A stretch of DNA of 64,000 nucleotides from Xanthobacteraceae bacterium (lineage in GTDB: Bacteria > Pseudomonadota > Alphaproteobacteria > Rhizobiales > Xanthobacteraceae), in the NCBI GenBank assembly GCA_019746355.1, contig JAIESC010000067.1:62001-126000 (forward strand), read 5' to 3'. Position 1 is the first letter of the stretch. The number at the start of each line of letters is the position of its first letter. Under the pieces are notes generated by a model. It worked only from the letters and a program-made list of their open reading frames with translations, made no database searches and was not told the DNA's origin. Positions 5,702 to 51,879 of the stretch are shown in pieces. The position numbers and the translations under genes were made by a program.

Positions 5702-5710
5702 CGAAGCGCA

Positions 5711-17838: not shown

Positions 17839-17996
17839 GTGCGTCTCCTTGCGTCGGCCGCAGGCCCCTCCGGCCGCAATTTATCCCGCGTATCGCGGCG
17901 TGACGACAAGAATTCGGCGCCGAAAGCCTGCCGTGCCCCAAAATGTCCACGACCGCCCAACGCCAAGGTTGCAGCCAGCGGACCAAGCGCCGCCTG

Positions 17997-20869: not shown

Positions 20870-20929
20870 CGTACTTCCCCTCTACACCTGCCTTGAGACC
20901 AACAAACAGCGCCACTACCTTGGAACTCG

Positions 20930-22294: not shown

Positions 22295-22321
22295 CCCCGG
22301 GATTTGCCCAAGGATTTGCGC

Positions 22322-25383: not shown

Positions 25384-25410
25384 ACGCCCCAGGTCCGCAA
25401 AACGCGAGGA

Positions 25411-26241: not shown

Positions 26242-26364
26242 CGTAATCAGACCCCGAACCGCATCACGCGCGCGCAAACACGTCCGTTCGCGCGTCAGCA
26301 ATCAGCAACACTCCGAGATTTCCGTCCGGTCGCGCAAGCACCGCTTTTCGTGTCGGCCTCTGAA

Positions 26365-30166: not shown

Positions 30167-32845
30167 ATGGCAGCTCGTCGACGCAAACATGCGGCCACGA
30201 AAGACCGTTCGACGGACCCATTTGCCCCCGTATTGCTGGACGACGAGCGGCATCACGAGGCGCTCGAGAAGCTTGCCGTACAGGCAATGTCTTCCGGAAA
30301 TTTCCGGGACGCCTTCAAGTACGCCGACCGCCGCTGCCGCATTCCCCCGCTGGCGCAAGCCTATCACTATGTGCTGCGGGCCGAGGCTTCCTATCAGATG
30401 GGCGAGCGCGATGCCGCGATTGGCGACATTTCGCGTGCGCTGGAGCTCTTGCCCGAAGACCTCACCGCCAATCGGCGAATGCTGGCCTGGGCGGAGGGCG
30501 CCGAGCAACGCCAGGCCGCGCAGGTTCTTGTTCGCTGCGAGCAGGATCTCAAGGTCCTGGCGAAGGCCGTTTCGTTGCTGCGCAAGGGCCGCAAGCGCGC
30601 GGCTTTTGGCGCGATCCGTTATACGGACACCGAAATCTTCGGATGGGCTTCGTGGCCGGGCCGCAGCTTGCCGAAATTGCGGATCGAGGGTGACAGCACG
30701 GTCATCGAGACGCTTGCGGCCGATCCCCGGCATCCGCTGCGGACGCCGGACAGCCATGCCGTGACCTTTTCGCGATCGCGACCGCGATCCAATGCGACGC
30801 AGACCGTGTCCCTTTCCGTGCGCCAGAAGGCGTTTTGTGAACTGCGGCTGCCGCCCAACCATCGGGACGGGCACCCTGCCGATCGAATTCACCGGCGCAA
30901 CACTTCGGCACAGGGCAGCGACGCCAGAACGCAAAACCCAGCCGCCAAGCGCTCGTCAGATCAAGACGATCCCCTGACGGTCATCGTGCCCATCTACGAC
31001 GACTACGAGGCGACCAAGGACTGTCTGGAGAGCTTGCTGGCGGCGTTTCGCGGAGAGCCGCAGGCCCGCGCCGTTTTGGTGAACGACGCCTCCCCCGACC
31101 CACGGATCGCCGATCTCGTTCGCAAGCTTGCGAACAATAAATTTGTGCGGCTCGTTGAGAACGAGCGAAACCTCGGCTTCGTCCACTCCGTCAATCTTGC
31201 GTTTTCGAAGGTCGCCGAGGGCGACGTCATCCTGTTGAACGCGGACACGATCGTGCCGGATGGCTTCATAACGCGCCTGCGATCGGCCGCACGCGCGTTC
31301 CCCGATATCGGCACCGTCGTACCGCTTTCCAACAACGGCGAGTTCACCAGCTTTCCGACGCCGAACAAGCCCAATCCGGTGCGGTCACCGCAGGATGTCA
31401 GTCTTCTCGACGCCATTGCCGCGGACGTGAACAAAGACAAGATCATCGACATCCCCAACGGGACGGGATTTTGTCTCTACATCACCCGCGAATGCCTGGA
31501 CGCCGCAGGCCCGCTATCAGACGCGTTCGAGCGCGGATATCTGGAGGATGCCGATTTCTGCCTGCGCGCACGCGAACTGGGTTTTCGCAATGTCTGCGCG
31601 CCGTCGGTCTATGTCGGCCACGTGGGCTCGCGCTCGTTCGGCGCCGAGAAGCGCTCGCTGGTGATGCGAAATATCGGAAAACTCGAAGCCCGGTTCAGCG
31701 ACTACCGTGCGGAATGCGCCGCGTTCATCAAGGCTGACCCGCTCAAGCAAAGCCGCGCGGCCATCGAGCGGCGGAGCCCGTCGCTGAGCGACGGCGTGGT
31801 GCTGTTGGTTGGAGGCAGGCTTGCAGACGGAGCCGTTGTCGAGGCGCGCGCCGAACAACTCGCAAACGACGGGCAAAAGGTTCTGATCGTGTCGGGCAAC
31901 GCCTTGTCGCCGGACCAGACCGTCAAAATCGCCCATCCATTCGAGGACATTCCTCAATCGCTCCAGTTCGAGATCGCAAGGCCCGAAGAGCGAAGCGCAC
32001 TGGCCGAATATGTTGCAATGCTGCGTCCCTCCCGGGTCGAGATCGCGGAGCCGGCCTGTGCGCCGGACGCACTGCTCGACCTTCTGCGGGCCGCCGGAAC
32101 GCCAATCGACATCCTTGTCAGCGATGGTGGACTGATCTGCCCCCGCGGCACATGTCTCGGCAGCAACGGCACGGCTTGCGAGGCGCTGCAAGGAGCCCCC
32201 TGCTCGGGATGCCTATCCACGCCGGATATTGCAACGCACCCCGTCTGGGTGAATTCCTGGCGATCCAAGTGGCAGGACGTTGTCTGCCGGGCTGACCACG
32301 TCCTCGCGCCTTGCCCGCACGCACGACAATTCGCGAAGCAGTTTCTCCCGCGCGCCGCCAAGATTGTCGAACTCGACATCCGTCAAACGGCGCAGGTTGA
32401 GGCCATCGCCAGTCCCGACCGTGACGCGAAGGCGTTGGGGTTTCTAGCGATGGATGCCGACGTGCACGACCACCGCATGATGGGCCAGGTCGTGCGCGCC
32501 CTGACGCGCGATCTGCCCGGAACCGAAGTCGTGACGATCGGTCACACGCTCAATGACCTGGATCTGATGAAGCTCGACAACGTCTCCGTCACCGGCCGCG
32601 TCGAGTTCAAGGAACTGGGCCGCGTTCTGCGGCAATACGGTGTCAGGGCTGTGTTCGCGGCCATGCGCCGGCCACTGTTCGGGCATCCGATGATCGCTGC
32701 GCTCGCCGCAGCAGGCTTTCCCGTGGCGCTATTCGACTGGTCCTTCGGCAAGGCTCCGGTCCCCGCATCCAATCTGGCCATCGATCCCGGTGCGCCGGAC
32801 GAAGCGGTGGCGGCCAAATTGAAGCGCTGGTTTTCCAGGCTTTGA
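30167..32845 (+). CDS. Multidomain glycosyltransferase: TPR-like, GW-type beta domain, GT2, C-terminal domain
   Basis: The protein has 892 residues. Residues ~28-130 are helical pairs resembling TPR units. Residues ~147-230 form a beta domain containing IFGWASWPGRSLPKLRIEG, like the GW domains in two other island proteins. Residues ~270-500 are a family 2 glycosyltransferase (TVIVPIYDDYEATKDCLESLL, ILLNADTIVPDGF with the DxD-equivalent NAD, and YLEDADFCLRARELGF with the ED catalytic region). Residues ~530-892 are a GT-B-like or regulatory domain with a Cys-rich patch (GTCLGSNGTACEALQGAPC) that may bind a metal. Rhamnosyltransferase-like GT2s have similar cores; the donor sugar is unknown. Probably cytosolic. 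Confidence 0.82.
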   Translation: MAARRRKHAATKDRSTDPFAPVLLDDERHHEALEKLAVQAMSSGNFRDAFKYADRRCRIPPLAQAYHYVLRAEASYQMGERDAAIGDISRALELLPEDLTANRRMLAWAEGAEQRQAAQVLVRCEQDLKVLAKAVSLLRKGRKRAAFGAIRYTDTEIFGWASWPGRSLPKLRIEGDSTVIETLAADPRHPLRTPDSHAVTFSRSRPRSNATQTVSLSVRQKAFCELRLPPNHRDGHPADRIHRRNTSAQGSDARTQNPAAKRSSDQDDPLTVIVPIYDDYEATKDCLESLLAAFRGEPQARAVLVNDASPDPRIADLVRKLANNKFVRLVENERNLGFVHSVNLAFSKVAEGDVILLNADTIVPDGFITRLRSAARAFPDIGTVVPLSNNGEFTSFPTPNKPNPVRSPQDVSLLDAIAADVNKDKIIDIPNGTGFCLYITRECLDAAGPLSDAFERGYLEDADFCLRARELGFRNVCAPSVYVGHVGSRSFGAEKRSLVMRNIGKLEARFSDYRAECAAFIKADPLKQSRAAIERRSPSLSDGVVLLVGGRLADGAVVEARAEQLANDGQKVLIVSGNALSPDQTVKIAHPFEDIPQSLQFEIARPEERSALAEYVAMLRPSRVEIAEPACAPDALLDLLRAAGTPIDILVSDGGLICPRGTCLGSNGTACEALQGAPCSGCLSTPDIATHPVWVNSWRSKWQDVVCRADHVLAPCPHARQFAKQFLPRAAKIVELDIRQTAQVEAIASPDRDAKALGFLAMDADVHDHRMMGQVVRALTRDLPGTEVVTIGHTLNDLDLMKLDNVSVTGRVEFKELGRVLRQYGVRAVFAAMRRPLFGHPMIAALAAAGFPVALFDWSFGKAPVPASNLAIDPGAPDEAVAAKLKRWFSRL

Positions 32846-34255: not shown

Positions 34256-36424
34256 ATGGCCGGCAAGCGGGCGCAGTTGATCACGCGACGCGCCTTTCTC
34301 GGATCGCTCTCCGCCGCCCCGTTCGGCGGCCCGGGCAGGGCTGCGTTGGCCGCTTCCGGCTGGTTCGCCACAGGCTTCGCCCCGCTCACCACGAAAGGTC
34401 TTGTGAGAGCGTGGGACCCCGACGCACCCGCGGCATTGGGTCGTTTCGAGACGATGGAAATTCCCGGCGCATGGGGGACCAAAGCGTCGCTTGCTGCCGC
34501 GCCGACAGGCGGCCCCGCCCTGGTGACGGATCTCGGGCCGCTGGGACAGAGCGCTCTCAAATTCGAAGCCGTGGCACCGGCCTGTTGCCAATTTGCGCAA
34601 GTCGCGCTTCGCGGCTTCACGATCGCGATGGCGATCGCGCCAAGGTCGTTCGAGCGCGAGATGACACTGTTGAGCACGCGCGGCCTCGCGACTTCATTCA
34701 TCCAGCTGGCGGCCGGTGACCACGACATCTGCAGAAAAGTCGAGATCAGGTTTCACGGCCTGGGCAAGAGCATCGAGCTGGTCACGGCCGATCCCATCAA
34801 CACCAACATGCAGGTCGTCATCCTGTCTTACGACCCATCGGTGAACGACGGGACGGCGGAGATCCATCTCGACGGCGCGCGGGGAACGTCCGTCTCGCGC
34901 ATCGGCGCACAATCTCTGGTGCTGGACAGCATGGCGGCCGATGCCGGCCGTGCATCGCTGTCCGGCATTGTCGGACCGGTCCTGATCTATGACCGGGCGC
35001 TGCCCGAATCAGAACTCAAGGCGCTTTCCGTCCAGCTTGGGCAGACGTGGAGCGGCCGGACGCTCTACGTCGCCGCCGATGGCGACGATCAGAGCGACGC
35101 GCCGTGGAGCCAGCGAACGCCATGGGCGAGCCTGCAACGGGCGCTTCGTTTCAACTACCACGGCGGCGAAACCATTGCGCCCAAAGGCGGCGACATCTTC
35201 AGACCGGCGGGAACGCTGGCGCCGGCTGTGGCGGGGGCGGGCAACGACAAGCGGATCATCGTCGACGGCGCGCTCTGGGGCACGGGCAAGGCGCAGCTCC
35301 GGTGGTCGACAACCCCGGCGCTCACCCCGGTCTCCGGAACGGTCTACTCGGCTGGAACGCTCGCCAGCGATCCGGCCGGATACGTATTCTACGTCCCCAG
35401 CGGCGCGGTCGCCTTCAAGGAGCGGTATTCGACCAACGTCGTGCGCCTGACGCGCGACACGCAGGCGTTGCCCGGCCCCGGGAAATGGACGCGAGACGAA
35501 CGCACCAACACTCTCTATGTGAATGCGGGTGTCGCGCTCGCCGCGGGCGAGATCGAGGTGTCTACCCCGACCCGGCGGCTGCAGATGGTGATCAACAAGC
35601 AATACTGGACCTGGCGCAACATCGTCAGCGCGTTCGCGGACGGCCGCGGCTGGAGCGTCGCAGCCCAAAGCACAGGCGACATTACGCTGGACGGACTGGA
35701 GGCCTGGTTCTGCCAGAGCGACGGCTTCGACACGTTCGGAAACCTCGCGAACGTCAAGCTGATCGGGTGCAAGGCGCTCTACAACGGCAATGGTCCGGCC
35801 GTTGGCGGCGCCCCGGGAGACGGCTTCTCCCATCACGGCACGTCGCAAGTGGACCATGTCCGGTGCGAGGCCTGGTGGAACGACAAGGCCGGTTTCCACC
35901 ATCAAACCGGCACCAGGACGACACACGATCGCTGCATCGCCGTCGGCACCAGTCCCTACCGCACGACGACAGGCCCTCGCGAGGCACAGGACAACGGCGG
36001 CTTCATGAGCGTGACGAACTCGGTCGCGGTGGTGCCGGTGGGGGCGGCTTCGCCTTATGCCATCGAGGCAAAGACAAACACCGGAACGTCCTTCTCGGCG
36101 TTCAACAATATTCTCTATTCTCTTTCCAAAGGGTCGCAGGGGATTGGCATCTGGCAGGTGCATGCCTCCGGCACGGTCACCGCACGCGACAACGTCGTGG
36201 TGGGTTTCGAGATCGGCGTGCGCAAGCCCGACGGGCCGGGGCGATTGGTGCACGGCCGCAACTGCTATCACGGCAACGGCAGAAACTATGCCGGAACGGC
36301 CCCCGACGTTTCCGACATCGTGGCGGACCCGCAGTTTGTCGACGAGGCGCGCTACGATTTCAGGCTTGCACCGTCTTCGCCGTGCCTGCACGGATCGGCC
36401 GTGATCGGACCGAAAGTCCGATAA
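34256..36424 (+). CDS. Tat-exported right-handed beta-helix protein with LamG-like domain
   Basis: The 722-residue protein has a twin-arginine signal (TRRAFLGSLSAAP, residues ~10-22). Residues ~110-265 form a LamG/concanavalin-like domain (MTLLSTRG, AEIHLDGARGTSVSRIGAQ and LIYDRALPESELKAL, a typical last strand). The C-terminal ~400 residues contain parallel beta-helix rungs with Asn/Asp turns (ITLDGLEAWFCQSDGFDTFGNLANVKLIGCKALYNGNGP, and NKAGFHHQTGTRTTHDRCIAVGT). Such proteins are often polysaccharide lyases or hydrolases, so it may trim or release the island's exopolymer. It follows the exported propeller-like gene by 62 bases. Confidence 0.8.
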   Translation: MAGKRAQLITRRAFLGSLSAAPFGGPGRAALAASGWFATGFAPLTTKGLVRAWDPDAPAALGRFETMEIPGAWGTKASLAAAPTGGPALVTDLGPLGQSALKFEAVAPACCQFAQVALRGFTIAMAIAPRSFEREMTLLSTRGLATSFIQLAAGDHDICRKVEIRFHGLGKSIELVTADPINTNMQVVILSYDPSVNDGTAEIHLDGARGTSVSRIGAQSLVLDSMAADAGRASLSGIVGPVLIYDRALPESELKALSVQLGQTWSGRTLYVAADGDDQSDAPWSQRTPWASLQRALRFNYHGGETIAPKGGDIFRPAGTLAPAVAGAGNDKRIIVDGALWGTGKAQLRWSTTPALTPVSGTVYSAGTLASDPAGYVFYVPSGAVAFKERYSTNVVRLTRDTQALPGPGKWTRDERTNTLYVNAGVALAAGEIEVSTPTRRLQMVINKQYWTWRNIVSAFADGRGWSVAAQSTGDITLDGLEAWFCQSDGFDTFGNLANVKLIGCKALYNGNGPAVGGAPGDGFSHHGTSQVDHVRCEAWWNDKAGFHHQTGTRTTHDRCIAVGTSPYRTTTGPREAQDNGGFMSVTNSVAVVPVGAASPYAIEAKTNTGTSFSAFNNILYSLSKGSQGIGIWQVHASGTVTARDNVVVGFEIGVRKPDGPGRLVHGRNCYHGNGRNYAGTAPDVSDIVADPQFVDEARYDFRLAPSSPCLHGSAVIGPKVR

Positions 36425-36458: not shown

Positions 36459-36710
36459 CTATGCTTGCTGCGAAACCGCCGACGAGCACAGGTCGATGAT
36501 GTCGCCAACGTTCTGGACCGAGCCGACTTTGGCAACGTCGAATTCGACGCCGAAGGTCTCTTCCAGTCCGAGTATGAGGCTGACATGCGTCGTGGAGTCC
36601 CAGCCGTTCAGACCACCCACAGCCGTTGTCTCGGAAACCTTTTCGGCTCCAATCGAAAAGTGATCCGCGACGCATCCGATCACTTTATCGGCGACGATTT
36701 TACGATCCAT
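36459..36710 (-). CDS. Acyl carrier protein
   Basis: This is an 83-residue acidic four-helix carrier protein. The phosphopantetheine attachment serine is S39 in the GWDSTTH motif (the DSL-equivalent), followed by the helix HVSLILGLEETFGVEF typical of ACP/PCP proteins. Not the fatty-acid AcpP by sequence. It is the last gene of the reverse operon with the adenylation enzyme, GNAT and LpxL-like genes, so it is the probable carrier for the activated acid. Confidence 0.9.
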   Translation of the reverse strand: MDRKIVADKVIGCVADHFSIGAEKVSETTAVGGLNGWDSTTHVSLILGLEETFGVEFDVAKVGSVQNVGDIIDLCSSAVSQQA

Positions 36711-36773
36711 CCACCTGCTCCGCTGAAGTTGCGCTGGTTTTCGGTATGGGCCAGGCTCTGCCCTGCCTGCCTG

Positions 36774-37391
36774 CTATGCCGCTTGGCTCCGATCGAGCAC
36801 CATCGCGCGAAAGAGATGTGGCCCATCGGATAAGAAGGAAAATCCAAGCTTTGAATAGAAGCGAATTGCCGTCGTGTTATCCTTGTGAACGTGCAGGGTG
36901 CAGAAGCGCGGCCTCTTCGCTTCCAGGAAACCCTGCATGATTTCGGTTCCGGCGCCGCTGCCGCGAACGCCGCCATCGACGGCGAGCCGCGACACATACG
37001 TGCTCTCGATCTTCAGCGGCTCCAACGAGGCGCTGAACGCCTTGACGGCAGCCGTGAATTTTACCGCCCGATCCCTGTCGAGCGAACGCAAAATTGCAAG
37101 AAGACTGCCCTTTTGCGCGGCCGGCAACGTCGCCGTGCCCACAGCAGACAGTGACGCGACGTCCACCTGATCTCTACGGAGCGCGTAGGTGTTCTCCAAT
37201 TCGGTGCCCGGCAGAGCGATCTGCCGGGCGACGATTTGCAGCATCTCGGGCTCCGGCACCGGGATGAGGTCATAGAACTCGGGGGACGCGGCGTATGTGA
37301 GCTTCGCAAACGCAAACGCCTTTCCAGCGTCTTTCTCGATCTCCTCGCGGCTAAGCCTGCGAAGGTTGGTGTCCATGCCTTGACTGGTCAT
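36774..37391 (-). CDS. GNAT-family acyltransferase
   Basis: The 205-residue GNAT-fold protein has the acyl-CoA/pantetheine loop VRGSGAGTEIM (Q/R-x-x-G-x-G/A, around 141-151) and the terminal strand pair TLHVHKDNTTAIRFYSKLGF typical of the family. It would transfer an acyl group from CoA or a carrier protein to an amine. The location between the adenylation and ACP genes suggests it modifies the acid or sugar handled by this operon. The ATG at 37391 is used; the alternative at Met6 is possible. Confidence 0.8.
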   Translation of the reverse strand: MTSQGMDTNLRRLSREEIEKDAGKAFAFAKLTYAASPEFYDLIPVPEPEMLQIVARQIALPGTELENTYALRRDQVDVASLSAVGTATLPAAQKGSLLAILRSLDRDRAVKFTAAVKAFSASLEPLKIESTYVSRLAVDGGVRGSGAGTEIMQGFLEAKRPRFCTLHVHKDNTTAIRFYSKLGFSFLSDGPHLFRAMVLDRSQAA

Positions 37392-37456
37392 TGCTTGTCA
37401 TTGCCGTCGCACGGACAGGCTTTTCCTCGCGACGCCGATGCTCCTCGGGCTTGTTG

Positions 37457-38998
37457 TCACGCCGCTTCTCCGGCCTGCGCATAGGTCCGCGCCAGCGTGA
37501 CATAGTCGATCTTGTCATTGCTGTTTTTTGGCATGTCATGGAGCTCAACAATCCGCTCCGGAACCATGTAGGCCGGCAGAATCTTTTTCATTCCTTCGAT
37601 GATTTCTTCCGGCGCCCGATCGGCCCTGCATACTATTCCGACAAGATCGTCATACGTGCTCGGCCCGACCTGCTTTGTCGGCAGCACGGCGATCAGCTCG
37701 GTACCGGCGCATGTCCGGAGCGCGCTCTCGACCTCGCCGATTTCCACGCGATACCCTCGCACCTTGACTTGCGAATCCAGTCTGCCTTTGAAGATAAATC
37801 CAAAGTCTTCGTCGAAGCTTGCGAGGTCCCCCGTGCGATACCAGGTCCTGCCGTCCAACTCGACGAGAACCGGCCGCCCCGGCTTTCGGCTTTCATCCTT
37901 GATGTAGCCCGCAAACACCTGCGCTCCGCTCAGCAGCAATTCGCCGCTCTCGTCCACCCTCATCTCCTGCGCACCGATCGGGAAGCCGAGCGGGACCACG
38001 GAATACGGGTTCGATCGATTTTCTTTCCAGTTGAAGGTGCTGAAGGCGATCGTCGCCTCCGTAGGCCCATAGATGTTGTGGATCTCGCTGGCCGGCGCAG
38101 CCGCCGCCCAGCTTTCCGCCAATGACGTCGGCAGCGCTTCGCCACAAAAGAACGACGTCTTCAACGTCGGCATCGAGCCCGCCTTCAGGAGCCCTAGGGA
38201 CTTGGCCTGCGCTGCGGCTGACGGAACCGACAAGCAGCGCGTCACCCCGAGCTGTCGGATGAAACGCGGCGCCATGGGCGCGTTTCCGGTCGGAACCACG
38301 ACCAGCATCCCGCCATTGGCCCAACACAGCAGCGTGTCGTGAACCGAAAGATCGAACGTCAACTCGACGCTTTGAATAAATCGGTCATTCTCATCAAAGC
38401 GGTACTGCTTCGTCATTTCGACGACGTAGTGACTCACGTTCGCCGCGCCGATCGGCACGCCCTTGGGGACACCCGTCGATCCTGACGTGAACATCACGTA
38501 CAGAAGGTCATTTTTGCCGCGACCACGACCGTCCGGCCCCGGGCTCGTGCTGACCTGCTTCGATCCCGCCGGCGTTGGCGTCAGCGTCTTCTGCTGGGGC
38601 GTCACGGCGACGATGCAGGTGGGACAGGCCTGCTGATCAGCCAAGTCCTTCCCCAAGTCGGAACGGCCCGCTTCCTCATCCAGCAAGAGAAAATCGGGGC
38701 GCGCGAGCGCCAAAATCCGCTGGATACGCTCGGCCGGCCATTGTGAGTTGATCGGGACGTAGCAGGCGCCATTGACGATGCTGCCAAAGATCGAAAAGTA
38801 GGAGCCGGCCGGTCGGCCGCTGACGATAGCGATCGTTGCCCCGTCCAAGTCCCCGAGCGTCTTCTTCATGGCGATCGAGAAATCGGACAGCTCCTGGTAC
38901 GTATAGAAACTGCCCGCAATCCAAAGCGCCTGCCTTGCGGATTCGGACTTCGCCCGCGCCAGTACGAGGTCTCGTACACTTGCGTTCATCGTCGTCAA
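37457..38998 (-). CDS. Stand-alone amino-acid adenylation enzyme (NRPS A-domain/DltA-like)
   Basis: This 513-residue ANL-superfamily enzyme activates a carboxylic acid as an acyl-adenylate and loads it on a carrier protein. Motifs: A3 MFTSGSTGVPKG (169-180), FDLSVHD with the amino-group-binding Asp216, A5 YGPTEAT (310-316), A7 YRTGD, A8 KVRGYRVEIGEVE and A10 NDKIDY with the catalytic lysine near residue 500. Asp216 in the FDxSV motif indicates an alpha-amino acid rather than a fatty acid. No condensation or thioesterase domain is fused. Its ATG overlaps the LpxL-like stop by four bases, and the ACP is two genes downstream. Amino-acid identity cannot be read reliably. Confidence 0.88.
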   Translation of the reverse strand: MTTMNASVRDLVLARAKSESARQALWIAGSFYTYQELSDFSIAMKKTLGDLDGATIAIVSGRPAGSYFSIFGSIVNGACYVPINSQWPAERIQRILALARPDFLLLDEEAGRSDLGKDLADQQACPTCIVAVTPQQKTLTPTPAGSKQVSTSPGPDGRGRGKNDLLYVMFTSGSTGVPKGVPIGAANVSHYVVEMTKQYRFDENDRFIQSVELTFDLSVHDTLLCWANGGMLVVVPTGNAPMAPRFIRQLGVTRCLSVPSAAAQAKSLGLLKAGSMPTLKTSFFCGEALPTSLAESWAAAAPASEIHNIYGPTEATIAFSTFNWKENRSNPYSVVPLGFPIGAQEMRVDESGELLLSGAQVFAGYIKDESRKPGRPVLVELDGRTWYRTGDLASFDEDFGFIFKGRLDSQVKVRGYRVEIGEVESALRTCAGTELIAVLPTKQVGPSTYDDLVGIVCRADRAPEEIIEGMKKILPAYMVPERIVELHDMPKNSNDKIDYVTLARTYAQAGEAA

Positions 38999-40248
38999 AC
39001 CTGTCGATGATTGATGAGTTCGGCGTCGAGCTTAGACTTGCCCGCGCTTTCCTTTAGGCTCTGGCCCGAAAGCCACCAGAGCCCGCCGCCTCGGCCGCGA
39101 ACATTTCGCGGATCTCCCGTGATGATGCGTCGAAGCTGGCCGGCATAGAATTCGAACCATCTCGCAAGCCAGTCCTGGTACTTTTCGCCGGCGCGCGCCA
39201 CCGGACCGAGTGCATAGTTGAATGCCAGACGATCACCGTTCCATCCGAGGTAGTACCAGATCGGCTGGCATTTGGCGTGGAACGCCGCAAACGGTGCTCC
39301 GAGCCGAAAGTCGACTTCGCTGCCGAACAGGTTGATCGAGTACTTTCCCGTTCCGTAAGGACCGTCGCCACCTATCAGCACGACATTGCCGCTGCCTCTC
39401 AGTTTTTTGACAATCTGGTACAGGACCGCTTCCGGATTTTCCTTCAGCGAGATGGCAGCGTCATCGCTTGGCCGCGCGTGCGCACCGACTCTGATGGCGT
39501 TGGGAAAGGCGCGCTGTATCAAATCCACGCCCAACCGGAACAATCCGGCATGCGCGCCGACCATCAGCACTGAGCCGCCCGACTTTGTTACGTTGTGAAC
39601 GTCCGCGGACAGCTCATCCAGCCGGTCCGCCTGCAATTTCCGAATCCATTCCGATCCGTTTGCGCTGAGGACGGTGGCGATATCCAGATACAGCAGCTCA
39701 GCAACGGCGCCCCACAGGATGACTTCCTTGTAGGCCTCCTTCCCGTCGTCGGCGACGCCGTTGGCTTGGTAAAGATAGTTCAAAATGACTTCGGGAACGA
39801 TATCCGGCTTCCTGAGCTGCCCGAGCAAGCCAACACCCGCGTGAAAATCGAGCGGAAACCCGGGCCACTTGAAGCCGAAGACTAACTTGGCACGAGCCCC
39901 CCGCCGCGCCGCGGGCAAACCTCGGCCGGAAAGTGTTTTCGGCAGGATCGGAAGCGCGAAAGCCCTCGCGTAAAGCGCGTCGATACTCTTGTCCAGCAAT
40001 CCGCAACGTTCGATCTCGCGAAACAGCCCGAAAAAGCGAAAGGTCGCGTGAGAGGCCAAAAATCGCCTCAGCGCGGAATACAACGTTTTCGTCCTGGAGG
40101 CGGCGTCCAGCCCGTTCGCGACCTCCAGAGCGCTTTTGTAATCGCCTGCTCGACAATGAGCGTGCACCAACTGGTGCTGCGACGCCAATGTGCGTCGCAG
40201 CTGTGCATGCATAGTCGAGCGCGCGTCAATCCCGGCCGAAGGACGCAT
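38995..40248 (-). CDS. LpxL/HtrB-like acyltransferase homologue with altered active site
   Basis: The protein has 417 residues. Residues ~220-375 resemble the lipid A late acyltransferase fold: VLMVGAHAGLFRLGVDLI, where the catalytic His would be H233, then VVLIGGDGPYGTGKYSI (293-304) and PFAAFHAKCQPIWYY. The usual H-x4-D/E signature is replaced by H233-A-G-L-F-R238, so the acid is missing or supplied elsewhere. The N-terminal ~200 residues are helical and unlike LpxL. It may use the operon's ACP-bound acid as donor. Translationally coupled to the adenylation gene. An alternative Met is at residue 13. The assignment rests on pattern only. Confidence 0.62.
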   Translation of the reverse strand: MRPSAGIDARSTMHAQLRRTLASQHQLVHAHCRAGDYKSALEVANGLDAASRTKTLYSALRRFLASHATFRFFGLFREIERCGLLDKSIDALYARAFALPILPKTLSGRGLPAARRGARAKLVFGFKWPGFPLDFHAGVGLLGQLRKPDIVPEVILNYLYQANGVADDGKEAYKEVILWGAVAELLYLDIATVLSANGSEWIRKLQADRLDELSADVHNVTKSGGSVLMVGAHAGLFRLGVDLIQRAFPNAIRVGAHARPSDDAAISLKENPEAVLYQIVKKLRGSGNVVLIGGDGPYGTGKYSINLFGSEVDFRLGAPFAAFHAKCQPIWYYLGWNGDRLAFNYALGPVARAGEKYQDWLARWFEFYAGQLRRIITGDPRNVRGRGGGLWWLSGQSLKESAGKSKLDAELINHRQV

Positions 40249-40293
40249 GAATGCGTATTGCTTTCTAGATTTCTAGCTTTCTCGCTCTCTAGT

Positions 40294-40620
40294 CTAGCGA
40301 GCGCCCTTCATTTGCACGGCGATCGTCTTCTTTTCAGTCTGCAGGTGCTGCCGCTCCGCACGCAAAGCATCGATTCGCGCGGTGACATAGATTCGGCGCT
40401 GCAGAAGGTTTTTGAGCTGATCGCCCGCCGCTGGTTTCGATCTGAGTTTTTCACCGAAGCTCTTCTTTTCGCTCACGAGCGACTTCATCTCCTCCTGCGA
40501 CTCAACAAGACGCATACGCACGTAGATGTCACGATGCCGCAGCCCGGCTCGGGCGGCAGCGCCGGGATTGGCTGCCATCTTCTTGTCTGAACCCACATGT
40601 GTGCTGGTATTGGCCATCAT
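40294..40620 (-). CDS. Small coiled-coil protein of unknown function
   Basis: Not recognised. The 108-residue product is highly charged and predominantly helical, with heptad-like repeats (SQEEMKSLVSEKKSFGEKL, RIDALRAERQHLQTEKKTI) and no membrane segment or signal. The ATG at 40618-40620 has AGGAG eight bases upstream, so I prefer it over a start seven codons earlier. It lies between the double methyltransferase and the LpxL-like gene (45 bases), so it probably belongs to the same operon. Confidence 0.6.
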   Translation of the reverse strand: MMANTSTHVGSDKKMAANPGAAARAGLRHRDIYVRMRLVESQEEMKSLVSEKKSFGEKLRSKPAAGDQLKNLLQRRIYVTARIDALRAERQHLQTEKKTIAVQMKGAR

Positions 40621-40762
40621 CGTCTTTTCTCCTGAATGCACGTATCAGATCCCATGGTTCGGGCCGTCGAATGCCCCGGCGCCCGCAACGCCGCGCATCG
40701 CTGGATGACAGGGCGGGCAAGCCCCGGCAAAGAACGACACGGCGACGGGTCAATGCTTCCGG

Positions 40763-42673
40763 TCAAGCAGCGTCGCCGGCTCTTCGATCCGGCCGGGCTT
40801 TTCCACCAGCCTCCTGCTTGATGCTGTAGCCCATGCCTTCGAGCTGCTTCAGAACAGCCAGCCCGAGGCGGGTATACTCGCGCCGCGCGCCGCCCCAGCT
40901 CTCCTTCATCTGTTCCTGCATCTGGTCCCTGGTGATGTCCGGATTGCTCTGCACCAGGAGCCTGCGCCAATAAGCGAGGCCCAGCGCACGGGCGATATTC
41001 CGGCGTTCTTCAGTCACGGATGCCACCACGTCATCGTCTCCTTGCATCTTGGGATCGTCAGTCTTGGCCAGCATGGGAATGAGGCCGGTCGAAATCGCAG
41101 AACGGAACCTTTCGGCGCGCTGCGGATCCTTCAACCGCGCGATCAGATAAAGATCGCGAGCCGGCTCGCCCTTTCGCGGCGACCATTGCTCGAGAAGCTC
41201 GATTTCGAAGCCGAGTTTCTCCAGGATCAAGCTGACCATCCCGGCGCTCTGGTATTCGCCGCGCGGACACGCGCGCCCCTGGTGCCTGTAGAACCTGCCG
41301 ATGTCGCCGATCAGCTTTTCGAAGCCGGCCTCGGACGTCGCGTCGCAAAGCGTCATGATGATCCGGCCGCCTTCGCGAAGGATCAGCGCCGCGTTGACCC
41401 AGTACGTCGTGATGTATTGCAGGTCGACGTGGATCATCGAGTCGACGCTGAACAAGGCATCGACCTTGCGGACCAGATCCTCCTTTTCGAAATGGCGGAA
41501 CATGGCGTCCGGCTTCGTCCCGTCGATCTCAACCGAGCTCACGCGATCCGAGAAGCGGCTCAGCCGCTTCTCGGCCGCGTCAAGAAACTTTCGGCTGACG
41601 TCGAAGCGCGAAAGCTTCACCTCGGGATTGGCGGCAAGCATGCGTTCCGCATACTTGCCGTCGGCGCCGCCGATCTCGATCGCCTGGCGCCACGTCTTCA
41701 CGTCGCCCGGTTCGAACAGGCGCTTGAAGACCGCATTGAGGCTGGCCGAGTCGTCCGAGGCCCCGGACGCCAGCAGCTTCGTCGCATAACGGTCCCACAT
41801 CTCGCCGTAGGTTTCCGCGCCGGACAGTCCGAGGCCAGCGATTGGATCGTTGTCGCCGTTCGAGCTCTGAATCGCACGGAGGAAGCGCTCGGCCTTCTCG
41901 GGTAGGTCGAGCCGCGCGATCAGATAGATGTCGCGCGGGGCCGCGCCCGGACGTTGCGCCCAGTGCTCCAGCTTCTCCATGGTGAAGCCGAGGCTCTCCA
42001 GCACGTGCCTGACGATCGGGATGCTGAGGTACTCGAACTTCGGGCACATCCGGCCCTGGAACTTGTAGAATTTGGCGATATCACGAATGATCTTCTGGAA
42101 CCCCGCCTCCGAGGTCGGATCGGCGAGCGTCATCAGGATACGTCCGCCCTTCTTCAACACCTGAGCGGCATTGATCCAGTAGGTGACCAGATACTGCAGG
42201 TCGACGTGGACCATGGCGTCGATGCTGAACATTGCATCGACCTTCCGCGTCAGGCCGGCATCCTCGAAGATCTGCATCATCGCGTCGGCGCGCTCGCCGT
42301 CGATCTCGTTCAGCGACAGGCGATCGGTATCGACGTACTCATGAAGGCGCCTTGCCGTCGATTCCAGGAAGTTGCGGCTGACGTCGAAGCCCCATACCCG
42401 GACATCGTCGTTGGCGCGAAGCACGCGCTCGGTGTACTTGCCGCCGCCGCCGCCGATCTCGATGGCGTATTTCCACTTGGCGACGTCCGACGGAACAAAC
42501 AGGTGATTGAAGATCGACAGCCACGACCCCTCGTTGCCCCACTCCTCGCCGGGATAGGTCAACTCACCACCGGAATCCTCCTGGAGCTTCGGGAACGCCT
42601 GAGCCACGTAGCGGTCCCACAGCTCTCCGTAGGTCTCCTTGAGCTTTGGCCGATCGACACGCGTGTCACTCAT
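40763..42673 (-). CDS. Double-domain SAM-dependent methyltransferase (internal duplication)
   Basis: The 636-residue protein contains two homologous class I methyltransferase units. Unit 1 (about 10-270) has AIEIGGGGGKYTERVLRAN and VDLQYLVTYWINAAQVLKKGGRILMTL. Unit 2 (about 285-530) has AIEIGGADGKYAERMLAAN and VDLQYITTYWVNAALILREGGRIIMTL. Both begin with a GEMWDRY-like motif (ETYGELWDRY and ETYGEMWDRY), so each duplicated unit is complete with its SAM loop. A ~100-residue helical tail follows. It probably methylates a sugar at two positions or acts as a fused dimer. It is first in the reverse operon. Start ATG at 42671-42673 has GGAG upstream. Confidence 0.8.
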   Translation of the reverse strand: MSDTRVDRPKLKETYGELWDRYVAQAFPKLQEDSGGELTYPGEEWGNEGSWLSIFNHLFVPSDVAKWKYAIEIGGGGGKYTERVLRANDDVRVWGFDVSRNFLESTARRLHEYVDTDRLSLNEIDGERADAMMQIFEDAGLTRKVDAMFSIDAMVHVDLQYLVTYWINAAQVLKKGGRILMTLADPTSEAGFQKIIRDIAKFYKFQGRMCPKFEYLSIPIVRHVLESLGFTMEKLEHWAQRPGAAPRDIYLIARLDLPEKAERFLRAIQSSNGDNDPIAGLGLSGAETYGEMWDRYATKLLASGASDDSASLNAVFKRLFEPGDVKTWRQAIEIGGADGKYAERMLAANPEVKLSRFDVSRKFLDAAEKRLSRFSDRVSSVEIDGTKPDAMFRHFEKEDLVRKVDALFSVDSMIHVDLQYITTYWVNAALILREGGRIIMTLCDATSEAGFEKLIGDIGRFYRHQGRACPRGEYQSAGMVSLILEKLGFEIELLEQWSPRKGEPARDLYLIARLKDPQRAERFRSAISTGLIPMLAKTDDPKMQGDDDVVASVTEERRNIARALGLAYWRRLLVQSNPDITRDQMQEQMKESWGGARREYTRLGLAVLKQLEGMGYSIKQEAGGKARPDRRAGDAA

Positions 42674-43076
42674 CTTCACGAACTCCGGATCGCATTTCAA
42701 TTTCGACCGACAGTCTTATGTCGAATGGAGCAGCATTGTGACCTTAGCTCTGCGTCCATGTGAATTTTCGTGTCCGAATTTTCGGGTGGCGCTTCGCAAA
42801 ATTGCAACAATCCGGAGCGTCCGCGGATGTGAGCCACATGCATCGCGTGCGTGAGCGCAGGCAACACGATACCTCGCAAAATAGTTCCAGGTTCCGTTTG
42901 AATTTTACCGATATTGTGTCATCAGTCGGACGCAGGAAATCGCCGTGGTCTGTTCAGCGAGCGGGTTTCCGGCCATGATGCCGCCATTCAACATTGTTGC
43001 GAGTAGATCTCTCACGCACCCGCGCCGTCATCGACGGCTCCCTCGTGTTCCTGCGTTCGGCAGAAGCGTCTGATTG
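42674..43076. other. Divergent intergenic region before the methyltransferase and GT2 genes
   Basis: This 403-base gap lies between two divergent genes and is relatively AT-rich for this genome. It contains a direct repeat of GAATTTTCG at 42762-42770 and 42776-42784 (14-bp period), about 100 bases upstream of the methyltransferase start. No gene-like frame. Confidence 0.5.
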
Positions 43077-45521
43077 ATGGCGAAACGCGCCAAGCCACCG
43101 ACAAACAAGACATCGGCCGACAGGTCACCGGCAAAAGCACGAGCGACGCGCCGGTCGCGCAAACGCTCGCCAAGCGGCGGCAAGACCGCGTCTGCTGACG
43201 CAACCTTGCAGTGCGCGCTATTTCGAATCGGAACAGACAGTTTCGCCGGTTACGCCTACGACATGTCGGACCTCGATTGCCGTTTCGCCATCGAGCTGCT
43301 GCTCGACGGCGTTCCGGTCAAGCTCGCCCGGGCGGACGGTTTTGTGCAGGAGCTTGCGCGCAAGAAAGTGGGCGACGGTTGTTATGGGTTCACCTTCACG
43401 CTGTCGAATTCCACCCTCTGCATGGGCGTCGTCGAAGCACGGCTCGCCAATAGCGGGGTACCGCTGGCTGCGCCGATCGTGCTCAACGCCCCCGTCGCCA
43501 CCGCCGCAGCATGGCCGGAATTCGGCGAGGTGCACTGGCTCGGCGGGCTTCGCTACAACGGATGGTGTAACGCCGACGGCAACCGCGTCCCCGTCGTAAC
43601 GGCCATGATCGATGGCGAGACCGTGGCGCGAACCGAGGCCACTTTGTGGTCGCATCAGGGCTCGGGCGCGAGCGCCAGGGCTGTCCGTGGCTTTGATCTG
43701 CACTTGCCGGACCGATTCGCCGATGGACGCGTGCGCCGCGTGCGTTTCTTCAAGAACAACGAAACCGAGATCGGGCGTGAGCCGCTGGCGCATGTTGCAT
43801 TTCCAGACGGCCTCGCGCGCACGCTGGAAGCGCTCGGTGGTGTTGAATCCGAACGATTGCGGGGCGCGCTGTTCGACCGTCTGGTTCCGATGTCCCTGCC
43901 ACTTTCGGATTACCGCCGCTGGAGCGAGCGCTTTCCGATCGAGACCAAGAAACGCACCGCTTCCACCAGCGCCATCGCCGTCGTCCTGGTTGGCGCGGGC
44001 TCCGAGGCGCAATCGCTGCAAAGCATCGAGAGCCAGGGCTATGCGGAATGGCTGGCCGCCGCGATGCCCGATACGGACGAGCCGGTCGGGTTCGACCCGG
44101 AGCTTCTGGCCGCTTTTTTGGAGAACGAAGCAGGCGGGAGTGAAATCATTGTTTTTTCACTCAACGGGACGCGATTCGCAGCGCACTCCCTGCAACGCAT
44201 CGCCAACGCTTTCGCCGAATTTGCGGATGCCGATGCGCTTTACTCTGACGTCGAGATCGAGCGCGAGGACGGCACGGTCTGGCCGGTCGCCTTCACCGCA
44301 TTCGACTACGAGCGGATGCTCGAGCAAGGCTATTGCGCGCATCTGTTCGCGCTGCGCCGCAGAGTTGTGGAGGCCGCGCTCAAAACGGGAACGTCGACCC
44401 TCTACAGGTTATTCAACTATGCTCTCGACGGTTACGACGGTGTCGCAACCAATGTTGTCCATATCCCCGGCTCCCTCGGCGTGTTGCGCAACGTCCCCGT
44501 TGCCTCCGCCCGATCCGCGCTTGCGGCAGCAACGCGGGAGCATCTGAAGGCGCGCGGCATTGCCGCACGGGTCGCCGAGGGCCGCGGAACCCTGTTCCCT
44601 GCCGTGCGTGTCGCGCGGCCGATACCGCGCGGTTCGACCACCGTCGTCATCCCGGTGCGTGACAAACCCGAGCTTCTGCAGACCTGTCTGAATTCGATCC
44701 GCCATGCCGTCGCGAAAGCGCGGGCGGAGATCATGATCATCGACAACGATTCGTCCGATCCCGCGATGCTCGAATATCTCGAGACGCTGGAAGGAAGGAC
44801 CGCGCTGGTGGTGCGGGTCCCCGGCTATTTCAACTTCTCCCGCCTCAACAACATCGCCGCCGAGAAAGCGCAGAGCGACTACCTCTGCCTCCTCAACAAC
44901 GATATCGAGGCGCGTGACGATGCCTGGCTTGGCGAAATGCTGGGGCGTATCGCCGAGCCGGACGTCGGCGCGGTCGGCGCGCTGCTGCTCTGGCCGAGCG
45001 GCGTGGTGCAGCATGGCGGAGTTGCGCTCGGGCCACGGTTTGCCGCCGCGCATGCGTTCAACGAACGACTCGAGACCGATCCCGGCTATGCCGATGCGCT
45101 TCGCGTCGCGCATGAAGGCAGCGCCGTCACCGCCGCCTGCCTGCTCACCAGGCGCAGTGACTACCTCGCGGCCGGCGGCATGGACGAGCTGCGATTTCCG
45201 GTGAACTTCAACGACGTCGACTATTGCCTGAAGCTTCGCGCCGCCGGCAAACGCGTAGTGTTCACGCCGCATGCGCGGCTCATCCACCACGAATCGGCGA
45301 GCCGCGGCACCGACCGCGCGCCGGATCGCGCCGGACGTTTCGAGCGCGAGCTGCGGACGCTACGCGCCCGCTGGGGCGACACGCTGGTCAACGATCCGTA
45401 CTACAGCCCGATGCTGTCGCTCGATGCGGTTCCATTCTCGGGCTTGGCCTGGCCGCCACGGCCGATGACACCGAGAACCAATGGCAAGCCTGTTGCGGTC
45501 GAGACCCCGCCGGGCTTCTAA
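43077..45521 (+). CDS. Multidomain family 2 glycosyltransferase
   Basis: The 814-residue protein has a basic Ala/Ser/Lys-rich N-terminus (1-42). A beta domain (about 45-140) contains FAGYAYDMSDLDCRFAIELLLDG, and a second (about 150-245) contains LRYNGWCNADG. Residues ~298-470 resemble a decayed GT2 unit (DADALYSDVEIEREDGTVW and ALRRR). Residues ~520-770 are a complete GT2 domain: TTVVIPVRDKPELLQTCLNSI, CLLNNDIEARDDAWL (NND in place of DxD), and FNDVDYCLKLRAAGKRVVFTPHARLIHHE. Tandem GT2 proteins of this type build O-antigen- or adhesin-type glycans. A TTG one codon before is possible; the ATG is preferred. It is monocistronic and converges with the Sel1 gene. Confidence 0.83.
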   Translation: MAKRAKPPTNKTSADRSPAKARATRRSRKRSPSGGKTASADATLQCALFRIGTDSFAGYAYDMSDLDCRFAIELLLDGVPVKLARADGFVQELARKKVGDGCYGFTFTLSNSTLCMGVVEARLANSGVPLAAPIVLNAPVATAAAWPEFGEVHWLGGLRYNGWCNADGNRVPVVTAMIDGETVARTEATLWSHQGSGASARAVRGFDLHLPDRFADGRVRRVRFFKNNETEIGREPLAHVAFPDGLARTLEALGGVESERLRGALFDRLVPMSLPLSDYRRWSERFPIETKKRTASTSAIAVVLVGAGSEAQSLQSIESQGYAEWLAAAMPDTDEPVGFDPELLAAFLENEAGGSEIIVFSLNGTRFAAHSLQRIANAFAEFADADALYSDVEIEREDGTVWPVAFTAFDYERMLEQGYCAHLFALRRRVVEAALKTGTSTLYRLFNYALDGYDGVATNVVHIPGSLGVLRNVPVASARSALAAATREHLKARGIAARVAEGRGTLFPAVRVARPIPRGSTTVVIPVRDKPELLQTCLNSIRHAVAKARAEIMIIDNDSSDPAMLEYLETLEGRTALVVRVPGYFNFSRLNNIAAEKAQSDYLCLLNNDIEARDDAWLGEMLGRIAEPDVGAVGALLLWPSGVVQHGGVALGPRFAAAHAFNERLETDPGYADALRVAHEGSAVTAACLLTRRSDYLAAGGMDELRFPVNFNDVDYCLKLRAAGKRVVFTPHARLIHHESASRGTDRAPDRAGRFERELRTLRARWGDTLVNDPYYSPMLSLDAVPFSGLAWPPRPMTPRTNGKPVAVETPPGF

Positions 45522-45563: not shown

Positions 45564-47576
45564 CTAACCGAGGGCCTGCAGCCGTTTCTCGGCCACCGGG
45601 CTTCCGGCGCGCAGGGCCGCGCGGTACCAGCGCCGCGCCGCTTCGTCATCGCGCGACACGCCGTTGCCGGCACGGCACATGTCGCCGGCGGCGATCTGCG
45701 CCTCCGCCATGCCCTGTGCGGCCGCCTTCTCGAACCAGTAGTAGCCGCGAGCGGGATCAGGCTCGCAGCCTTGACCGCCAGCGAGCATCACCGCGAGATT
45801 GTACTGGGAGACGCGATGGCCCAGCTCGGCGGCGAGGCCATACCAGATGACGGCCTGGTGAAGATCCTTGGGCACCCCCTGCCCGGTGCAATACATCACC
45901 GCCAATTGAAACTGCGCGGCGGGATGGTCGGCATGTGCGGCGCGTTCGAGCCATGTGGCGGCGTTCCTGGCATCCGCGGGCACGCCGGTGCCGTTGAGAT
46001 AGATCGAGCCGAGGTTGAATTGCGCCTCAGCGCTGCCCGCATCGGCCGCCTTCTTGTACCAGACAACGGCCTCTGCCGGATTTGCCGAGGTGCCCGTGTT
46101 GTGCCTGCCGGAGAACAGATGACCGAGTTGCAGCGCGGCCGGCGTATGACCGGAATTGGCCGCCTCGATCAGCAATTCCGTGGCGCGCAGTGCGACATGC
46201 GTTTCACCCTGGAGATTGAGCATGGCCAGCGTCGTCATCGCTTCCGGATCGCCGGCTTCCGCCGCCGGCAGCAGCCAGTCGGTGGCGCGATCCAAATCGC
46301 GCGGCACGCCTTCACCTGTTGCGTAGAGCCGCCCGAGATGGGTCCGCGCCGTGCTGATGCCGCCAGTAGCAGCAACTTCGTACCAGCGGACCGCCTGTTT
46401 GACATCCTGCTCGACGCCGGTGCCTTTCGAGTAGAACACGGCGACGTTGTGCGCGGCGGTGGCGTGGCCGTTCTCCGCCGCACGCAAAAACCAGTGCGCC
46501 GCGTCCCGCATGCTCACCGGAACGCCGGTCCCCGTGGCGCTCATTCTGCCGATGATAAACTGCGACGGCACGTCGCCGCGCTCCGCGGCCTCCCGGTACC
46601 AGCTTGCGGCCTGCCGCAAGTCCGGTTCAATGCCGTCGCCCCGCGCATAGAACTCGGCGAGCTTGACGATCGCAGGCAGATAGCCGCGCTTGGCTGCGCG
46701 CCGCAGATAGGTTTCCGCCCGCTCGATATTTTTCTTCACGCCTTCGCCGCTTTGGTAGAGCAGCGCGAGATTGAACAATGCACGCGGCTCGCCCTGCTCC
46801 GCAGCCTGCTTGAACAGCTTGGCTGCGTGCTTTGCGTCGACCGGCCGGCCCTTGCCGGTCTGGTAGATGCTGGCCAGCGCCACCAGCGCCCTGGCATCGT
46901 CCTGCTCCGCGGCCTTGCTGTAATGGTCAGCGCCGCGTTCGAGGTCGACCGGCACGCCGAGGCCCTGGAAGTAGATGTCGCCGAGACCGAATTCGGCGCC
47001 GGCAACGCCTTGCTGGGCGGCCTGTTCATACCAGTGCCGCGCCTCGGCGATGTCCTGGTCGCAGCCGCGGCCCTGACGGTACATTTCGGCCACGACCAGT
47101 TGCGCTTCGGCTTTTCCCGCTTTGGCAGCGCTCAGAATCCAGCGTTGCGCCCGTTCGGCGTCCTTCGGCACCGTGATGCCGAACGGGAACATGGCATTCA
47201 CCGCCTGTTCCGCACGATCGCCGACATGATCCTTCGCCGACCGCAGCCACGCCGCAATCGAAGGATGCGCGCCCGCGCCGTAAAGATAGGTCAACCCGAG
47301 CTGGAACTGCGCTTCGACATGGCCTGCTTCCGCAGCGGAATTGTACCAGGCCACCGCATCGGGCGAGCTTCGCAACACGCCTTCGCCACGGGCATAGAGC
47401 GCGCCGATACGGTAGCAGGCATCGGCCGAGCCCTTCTCGCCCGCAAGCTTCCAGAGGCGCAACGCCTCCAGCGGCTGTCCCTTCTCCTGATAGGCGATGC
47501 CACGCTTCACCAGCGCCCCCGGACCGCCCCGGTCGAGGGTCGGCAGGACCACGCGCGTAAGCAGCGACGAGATCAC
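45564..47576 (-). CDS. Sel1-repeat (SLR) scaffold protein
   Basis: The 670-residue protein is composed almost wholly of about 16-17 Sel1-like repeats (~36 residues each, pattern A-x-x-W-Y-x-x-A-A-x-x-G-x-x-x-A-x-x-x-L-G-x-x-Y-x-x-G-x-G-V). These form an alpha-solenoid for protein binding. It has a short hydrophobic N-terminus (ISSLLTRVVLPTL) but no clear cleavage site. It starts five bases after the HlyD stop, so it belongs to the type I secretion operon. It may organise the exporter, or the substrate or modifying enzymes. Sel1 proteins in exopolysaccharide systems have comparable scaffold roles; the partner here is unknown. Confidence 0.87.
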   Translation of the reverse strand: MISSLLTRVVLPTLDRGGPGALVKRGIAYQEKGQPLEALRLWKLAGEKGSADACYRIGALYARGEGVLRSSPDAVAWYNSAAEAGHVEAQFQLGLTYLYGAGAHPSIAAWLRSAKDHVGDRAEQAVNAMFPFGITVPKDAERAQRWILSAAKAGKAEAQLVVAEMYRQGRGCDQDIAEARHWYEQAAQQGVAGAEFGLGDIYFQGLGVPVDLERGADHYSKAAEQDDARALVALASIYQTGKGRPVDAKHAAKLFKQAAEQGEPRALFNLALLYQSGEGVKKNIERAETYLRRAAKRGYLPAIVKLAEFYARGDGIEPDLRQAASWYREAAERGDVPSQFIIGRMSATGTGVPVSMRDAAHWFLRAAENGHATAAHNVAVFYSKGTGVEQDVKQAVRWYEVAATGGISTARTHLGRLYATGEGVPRDLDRATDWLLPAAEAGDPEAMTTLAMLNLQGETHVALRATELLIEAANSGHTPAALQLGHLFSGRHNTGTSANPAEAVVWYKKAADAGSAEAQFNLGSIYLNGTGVPADARNAATWLERAAHADHPAAQFQLAVMYCTGQGVPKDLHQAVIWYGLAAELGHRVSQYNLAVMLAGGQGCEPDPARGYYWFEKAAAQGMAEAQIAAGDMCRAGNGVSRDDEAARRWYRAALRAGSPVAEKRLQALG

Positions 47577-47581
47577 GGCGG

Positions 47582-51275: not shown

Positions 51276-51668
51276 GGAACTGCGCCCTCATCAATCAATG
51301 CCGTCCCGACGCCACATCGAAGCGTTGATGAAATTTTCTTTGCAATTTAGTGAGGAGATTCCATTGTCATCCGATCGACCAAAATCGAAAACCAGTTTTC
51401 ACACGCGCGCGGCCGATCGGTGAGATGCCCCTGGAACTTGCAGCTTTGGCATTCGTCACAAACGGCAGGCGTGCGACTCAGCCGCATAACAAATTGTGGC
51501 TGCCGGCAACGGTCTCCATATACCTGCTTGACGTTGGCGAAGCGTCGGCTTCCATCAGCCACTTGATGTCAGGTTGTCAGGCATCCGCATCCCAGCGCGA
51601 GCTCCTGATCACAGGGCTCGCGCGAAAATCATGAAAGCCGAGGGTGGCCGCTCGATACCGACGCAATC

Positions 51669-51699
51669 CATCATGTTACCGTGCAGCATCATGTTACCG
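51669..51699. repeat. 13-bp direct repeat CATCATGTTACCG (two copies)
   Basis: Copies occupy 51669-51681 and 51687-51699, an 18-bp period that would place them on nearly the same helix face. They are about 180-210 bases upstream of tolC. A 12-base match (TCCATCATGTTA) to the first copy occurs in the promoter region of the GT4/GT2 operon at 28608-28619, suggesting a common regulator. Confidence 0.5.
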
Positions 51700-51772
51700 C
51701 GTTGCTGCGCTGTGTTGCCCAGATGACATAGAAGGGCTCGGAACTTTCTCGCCCACTCCGCGTTCAGTCACC

Positions 51773-51805
51773 GCACCAATTGGTCCTTTTTTTTTCCATT
51801 GGTGC
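51773..51805. promoter_or_regulatory. Palindromic operator-like element upstream of tolC
   Basis: GCACCAAT at 51773-51780 and ATTGGTGC at 51798-51805 are perfect inverse copies. The left arm also forms a 10-bp palindrome ACCAATTGGT (51775-51784), and a run of nine T lies between. The element is 74 bases before the tolC ATG, suitable for an operator or an upstream promoter element. Confidence 0.45.
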
Positions 51806-51879
51806 TATAGGGGCCAGGGGACTATCCACCTGTCAGTTTTGTACCTGTGGCGTTCGAGTAAGCGGGTCTTGTCTGCGTA

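Follow-up and report, generated by a model that had tools for sequence, protein, structure and literature searches.

We analysed a stretch of 64,000 nucleotides (63% GC) from a Xanthobacteraceae bacterium (contig JAIESC010000067.1), hereafter called the window, to which coordinates refer unless another locus is named. Six minus-strand genes span positions 42673-36459, and the operon that an earlier, sequence-only reading had noticed here proved real. In the order of transcription, they encode a tandem class I S-adenosylmethionine-dependent methyltransferase (40763..42673, 636 aa, two halves 51% identical), a small charged protein (40294..40641, 115 aa), an LPLAT acyltransferase of the VexE type (38995..40248, 417 aa), a stand-alone amino-acid adenylation (A) enzyme (37457..38998, 513 aa from a TTG start or 510 aa from an ATG at 38989), a GNAT protein (36774..37391, 205 aa) and an acyl carrier protein (ACP; 36459..36710, 83 aa). 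Successive gaps are of 121, 45, -4, 65 and 63 bp, the overlap becoming a 5-bp gap if the A gene starts at the ATG. The small charged protein looks coiled-coil-like by eye and matched no family above cut-off, while the GNAT signature occupies residues 129-187 of its protein, behind an unusual N-terminal half. The ACP carries a modifiable serine, Ser39, in the sequence GWDSTTHV and is similar to ACPs of the A-linked and FkbH-linked relatives described below. Family scans of the six proteins revealed no domain of non-ribosomal peptide synthetases (NRPS) or polyketide synthases (PKS), condensation and thioesterase domains included.

The A enzyme matched the Pfam AMP-binding family (E 1.4e-51), the NCBIfam AA-adenyl-dom model (E 1.2e-79, with the NCBIfam cut-off not reached) and two NCBIfam DltA models (E 1.2e-65 and 1.2e-68, both under cut-off). 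Its database copy, P0006, is 510 aa long, which fits the ATG start, and P0007 is one of its nearest relatives. A 17-row profile of the enzyme and its relatives (A2) was compared with solved chains and gave 478 bits with the linear gramicidin synthetase LgrA, 395 with a peptide synthetase, 357 with 4oxi, 316 with 6akd, 306 with 8k4r and 289 with a DltA-type chain; LgrA, 4oxi and DltA chains all stood within the top ten. We take 4oxi to be AlmE; the database entry labels it EntF-related. In a single-sequence comparison the second domain of LgrA, which activates glycine, scored 134.7 bits against 101.2 bits for the first, which activates valine. The ten pocket residues were mapped by alignment to the gramicidin synthetase numbering and read DLHSFCIIAK, with Asp216 at the position that contacts the alpha-amine. 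The D-L-H, C, I, A and K positions of this code are invariant in all 17 A2 rows; at the fourth position, 11 rows have S, three M, two T and one C. The code of Bacillus subtilis DltA agrees with it at six of the ten positions. The aspartate at the alpha-amine position, together with the identity of the whole code in an independent genome (see below), makes an amino acid the likely substrate, as the sequence-only reading had supposed, and alanine or glycine is expected, though without certainty.

The acyltransferase is modelled with a helical N-terminal part (residues about 1-130, at low model confidence) and an LPLAT domain at about residues 145-400. A weak TPR-like match (E 0.02) falls on residues 12-74, where the helices are of low confidence, and no membrane helix is predicted, the Kyte-Doolittle maximum being 1.88 over 19 residues. 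Its nearest relatives (P0001, P0003 and P0004) are 87-89% identical to it. His233 and Asp295 are kept, and Arg238 replaces the acidic residue of the HX4D/E motif. In an alignment of 20 rows, near-identical ones included, the His233 column holds H throughout and the Asp295 column D in 17 rows, E in two and T in one. The protein matched the NCBIfam VexE model with 34.6 bits, below the curated cut-off of 1200. VexE, the UDP-N-acetylglucosamine (UDP-GlcNAc) 6-O-hydroxyacyltransferase of Vi antigen synthesis, is described as a soluble enzyme that uses acyl-ACP (hydroxyacyl-ACP) as donor and UDP-GlcNAc as acceptor, and that requires a His and an Asp (PMC9597891). Both proteins combine a helical N-terminus and an LPLAT domain with no membrane helix, and both retain the His and Asp while having lost the D/E of HX4D/E; we equated His233 and Asp295 with H466 and D532 of VexE by motif, VexE itself being outside the alignment. 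The window protein differs in having Arg where VexE has Tyr, in an N-terminal part much shorter than the large TPR domain of VexE and in being accompanied by its own ACP and A enzyme, and none of the proteins scanned in the window is a Vi export protein. For this protein, "VexE-like" fits better than the label "LpxL-like" given to it by the sequence-only reading.

We then turned to relatives of the A enzyme. With the threshold at E <= 1e-100, four of 385 alphaproteobacterial genomes matched, of which G003 was inspected (L010). Among the 228 genomes in the family of G001, a threshold of E <= 1e-130 left two, G001 and G1266, and a search with the G1266 enzyme matched two of the 13 genomes of its genus, G1266 and G1315. 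These genomes had come to light by different routes: G1266 through its LPLAT, G001 through the scan with A2 and G1315 through the G1266 enzyme. At the G1266 locus (L119, local coordinates), genes for an A enzyme (4509-6029), a GNAT (6035-6505), an ACP (about 6537-6782), a 558-aa protein, a sulfotransferase (8479-9129) and an LPLAT (9142-10218) follow one another, the LPLAT gene lying 2.4 kb past the ACP gene. This A enzyme is 40.5% identical to that of the window and has the same ten-letter code. The G1315 locus (L122), on a contig of 7.4 kb beginning within the A gene, encodes an A enzyme with the code DVMSFCLIAK, a GNAT, an ACP and an FkbM-type methyltransferase, beyond which lies a weak sulfotransferase match (E 0.0021). 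The order is reversed at L001 (ACP, GNAT, A). In the A-enzyme tree the window, L119, L122 and the database rows form one clade (support 100/99), which L001 adjoins (93/93). A, GNAT and ACP genes therefore occur together in all four inspected loci in or next to this clade, which supports the coupling of A enzyme and ACP supposed from the window. As to gene order, whose absence from every relative would have counted against the sequence-only reading, G1266 and G1315 share A-GNAT-ACP with the window and L001 has it inverted. All six genes together were seen in no other locus. Among L119, L122 and L001 the GNATs show a clear relationship (E 8e-44 and 4e-8), and sulfotransferase genes lie near the A genes in the window, L119 and, by the weak match, L122.

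More distant stand-alone A enzymes with the same type of code are accompanied by an ACP in L011 and L102 and by a fused carrier in L103; the operon profiles found no GNAT or LPLAT in these three loci. In L010 (7866-11008) and L011 (7935-11331) a stand-alone A enzyme with this code type is followed by a 500-aa protein without Pfam family, and in L011 the ACP comes after it. L103, on a plasmid of Phaeobacter sp. G2, holds a protein (6941-9676, code DLHSLCWIAK) in which the A domain is joined to a peptidyl carrier protein (PCP) and the C-terminal third is SGNH-like in appearance; its gene adjoins two sulfotransferase genes, by annotation, and a UDP-galactopyranose mutase gene.

Relatives of the LPLAT were searched for by profile. 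Matches were obtained in 2/397 genomes of the order of a Rhizobium genome, in 3/385 of the class and, by family, in 1/248 for that of G245 (G245 itself), 4/69 for that of G315 (G315 included) and 5/248 for that of G001, with none in seven further genomes; as the large searches scored four to seven candidates per genome, these counts are lower bounds. Plasmids of Paroceanicella, Marinibacterium and two Mesorhizobium also matched, the Mesorhizobium proteins at E 5e-4 and 1e-3 with the Paroceanicella query and at 2e-16 and 2e-15 with the profile. Leaving out G1298, whose LPLAT scored the same as that of the Marinibacterium plasmid, 16 loci other than the window were compared. Half of them (8/16) hold both an ACP and an acid-activating enzyme, namely FkbH (L083, L084, L096), an AMP-ligase (L089, L090, L106, L107) or an amino-acid A enzyme (L119). 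Three are partial: L117 has an ACP alone, L118 an AMP-ligase gene overlapping by 4 bp and no ACP that we could find, and L115 a fusion. The latter is a single frame of 999 aa (7201-10200) in which residues 182-339 form an AMP-binding domain and residues 734-977 an LPLAT domain of the VexE type. The other five (L088, L097, L105, L108 and L109) show neither ACP nor activator, gene calls being poor in L105. By eye, L088 looks like an ABC-type capsule locus and L090 like an aryl-polyene-type cluster. In L108 (8398-9969) and L109 (8170-9741), both Mesorhizobium plasmids, the LPLAT-type proteins are 523 aa long, one annotated as TPR, and their genes directly follow three glycosyltransferase genes, near glmS. 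The eight complete loci make the transfer role that the sequence-only reading gave to the LPLAT plausible.

The three FkbH loci, in G245 (L083, 7.1-12.5 kb), G315 (L084, 5.0-9.9 kb) and the Paroceanicella profunda plasmid pD4M1C (L096, 7.8-12.9 kb), each encode an ACP, FkbH, a class I methyltransferase, a VOC-type protein and an LPLAT, in three alphaproteobacteria and three different arrangements. Proteins of the FkbH type take a glyceryl group from 1,3-bisphosphoglycerate and attach it to ACPs. The ACP, FkbH, methyltransferase and LPLAT are clearly homologous across the three loci; the VOC proteins have a family name in common and little sequence similarity (E 0.0014-0.003 between L083 and L084, with L096 matching neither). 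We found no description of this five-gene cassette in the literature. The ACPs of these loci and that of the window have WDSxxHV in common, and a motif GP-x4-GE(K/R)Y occurs in 7 of the 20 LPLAT rows: the window, its three near relatives and the three FkbH-linked proteins. TGxP is found in the same seven as well as in L115 and L117, and neither motif in L119. In the LPLAT tree, which did not include L115 or L117-L119, the window clade groups with the FkbH-linked rows and the aryl-polyene-type row (87/85). The window thus resembles these systems in its LPLAT motif and its ACP, and differs in having an A enzyme and no FkbH, no open reading frame of the window matching the FkbH profile at E 0.05.

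The operon lies among glycan genes. It is flanked on one side by a convergent gene (34256-36424) whose product gave a weak beta-helix match and on the other by a divergent gene for an 815-aa GT2 glycosyltransferase (43074..45521, plus strand); genes for a GT4-type (28884-30155) and a GT2-type glycosyltransferase (30167-32845), both on the plus strand, also belong to its surroundings. Positions 11905-27162 form a sulfated-glycan island, with genes for 3'-phosphoadenosine 5'-phosphosulfate (PAPS) synthesis, sulfotransferases and epimerases: an epimerase by Pfam match (11905-12894), an inositol-phosphatase/CysQ-like gene (13216-14043, minus), a PAPS_reduct-family, CysD-like gene (13955-15346, plus), CysN/C (15346-17235, plus), four sulfotransferase-like genes, all on the minus strand (17997-18860, 20054-20869, 25411-26301 and 26365-27162), a second epimerase recognised by eye (19098-20057) and a glycosyltransferase (23455-25383, plus). 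Adjoining the glycan genes, the region 45564-53301 encodes an HlyD-type protein and a C39-peptidase ABC exporter, by Pfam, and by eye a Sel1-repeat-like protein and a TolC-like gene (51880-53301).

Our favoured reading, to which we give somewhat less than an even chance, is that the operon makes a carrier-bound aminoacyl group that is transferred in the cytoplasm either to a glycan of the cell surface or to a precursor of that glycan, be it a nucleotide sugar or a lipid-linked form. From family knowledge and the code, the A enzyme would adenylate a small amino acid of the alanine/glycine type and load it onto the phosphopantetheine of Ser39. The GNAT, and less surely the tandem methyltransferase, might then modify the group, most simply by N-acylation or N-methylation of the exposed amine. 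By comparison with VexE and from co-occurrence, the LPLAT would take the group from the ACP with His233 and Asp295 and esterify or amidate a sugar. The case is sequence-based: an amino-acid-type A enzyme, an ACP serine, an LPLAT fold in which the catalytic His and Asp are present, and recurring A-GNAT-ACP and LPLAT-ACP-activator sets. A sugar as acceptor is suggested by two things, the genomic context and VexE. Since sulfotransferase genes recur in the same loci, a sulfated glycan is the likeliest final bearer, and the module may set the charge or the capping of a sulfated polymer.

The same three-part logic is known from Vibrio cholerae, and the remark of the sequence-only reading that it knew of no described system with these genes is not supported. 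In published accounts of AlmE, AlmF and AlmG, the LPLAT-domain protein AlmG moves glycine from a carrier to lipid A (PMC12930378; PMC3783018; PMC4790380), the roles of AlmE and AlmF being assigned in reverse in one of them (PMC3783018). The window resembles AlmEFG in its stand-alone, putatively amino-acid-specific A enzyme, its separate carrier and its LPLAT-superfamily transferase, which was likened to AlmG by domain type. It differs in the additional GNAT, tandem methyltransferase and small protein, in an LPLAT that matches the VexE model and in its glycan-island setting. DltA/DltC, which acts with DltB and DltD in the D-alanylation of teichoic acids, offers a second likeness, a DltA-like A enzyme with a small carrier; among the six operon proteins, however, none matched the MBOAT protein DltB or DltD, the rest of the window having been partly scanned. 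As AlmEFG carries out chemistry of this kind on lipid A, our finding is not categorically new; it stands apart in having a transferase of the VexE type and a GNAT that recurs as a partner, in its setting among sulfated-glycan genes and in loaders that are interchangeable. A literature search, with most subscription journals outside its coverage, returned no paper describing such a gene set.

Transfer to lipid A or another membrane lipid, as by AlmG, would be the closest alternative and draws on AlmG's acceptor and on the mprF and lysyl-phosphatidylglycerol hydrolase genes that adjoin the Paroceanicella cassette. We regard it as unlikely: no membrane helix is predicted in the LPLAT, which matches VexE, an enzyme that acylates a nucleotide sugar, and the window, L119 and L122 loci contain glycan-type genes; the sulfotransferase genes of these three loci and the A-PCP gene beside sulfotransferases in L103 likewise point to a glycan. 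Somewhat less probable still is a division into two jobs, in which the LPLAT places a fatty acid from the housekeeping ACP on a sugar, as a lipid anchor in the manner of VexE, and the aminoacyl group made by the A enzyme, GNAT and ACP is transferred by the GNAT itself. The hydroxyacyl-ACP donor of VexE (PMC9597891), the five LPLAT loci without nearby ACP or activator and the constancy of A-GNAT-ACP (4/4 loci) against that of the LPLAT (2/4) fit such a division. The direct adjacency of the LPLAT and A genes in the window speaks against it, as do the dedicated ACP and activator in half of the LPLAT loci and the linkage of LPLATs with the window motif to FkbH, which loads a small polar acyl group. 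Synthesis of an N-acylated or N-methylated amino acid by the operon, its location in a glycan island being incidental, seems improbable and is the least likely of these readings: A, ACP, methyltransferase and GNAT genes are common in secondary metabolism, as on the Azospirillum plasmid L104 with its NRPS and PKS genes, but the six operon proteins lack such domains, and members of the A clade of the window repeatedly have sulfotransferase genes near them.

Several observations weigh against aminoacyl transfer to a glycan by the LPLAT. An LPLAT is present in two of the four A-clade loci, the window and L119, and this count is not independent, L119 having been found by its LPLAT; the contig of L122 spans no more than 7.4 kb, and in L001 none was found within 8 kb at the sensitivity used. 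The LPLATs of the window and of L119 are very remote from each other (E 3e-11 with the family profile, 1.1e-4 directly), and this distance, with the lack of GP-x4-GE(K/R)Y in L119, means that LPLATs may have been recruited twice. The grouping of the window LPLAT clade with FkbH-linked proteins is suggestive, not firm. The window GNAT is weakly similar to those of L119, L122 and L001 (E 0.0047), and L001 shows no sulfotransferase by eye, no sulfotransferase scan having been made there. Finally, the FkbH cassettes appear to lie outside glycan islands and one of them adjoins mprF, so that in their case a lipid acceptor is favoured.

A wider proposal, which we hold to be rather doubtful, is that there is an undescribed general class of carrier-protein systems in the cytoplasm whose VexE-type LPLATs take small polar acyl groups from dedicated ACPs and pass them to glycans of the surface or to precursors of these, the loaders being interchangeable: an A enzyme with a GNAT in the window, FkbH with its glyceryl group in three loci and other AMP-ligases in four. 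The system in the window would then correspond to D-alanylation, in a Gram-negative form directed at sulfated glycans. If true, the LPLAT fold, known for placing fatty acyl groups on lipid A, phosphatidylinositol mannosides and UDP-GlcNAc, would also decorate envelope glycans with amino acids bound to a carrier and perhaps with glycerate, and the decoration could be predicted from the adjoining loader gene. The operon proteins being mostly small and predicted to be soluble, the claim is open to in vitro work. It would widen AlmEFG from a single case on lipid A to a family, and would link aminoacylation with the sulfated glycans of bacteria.

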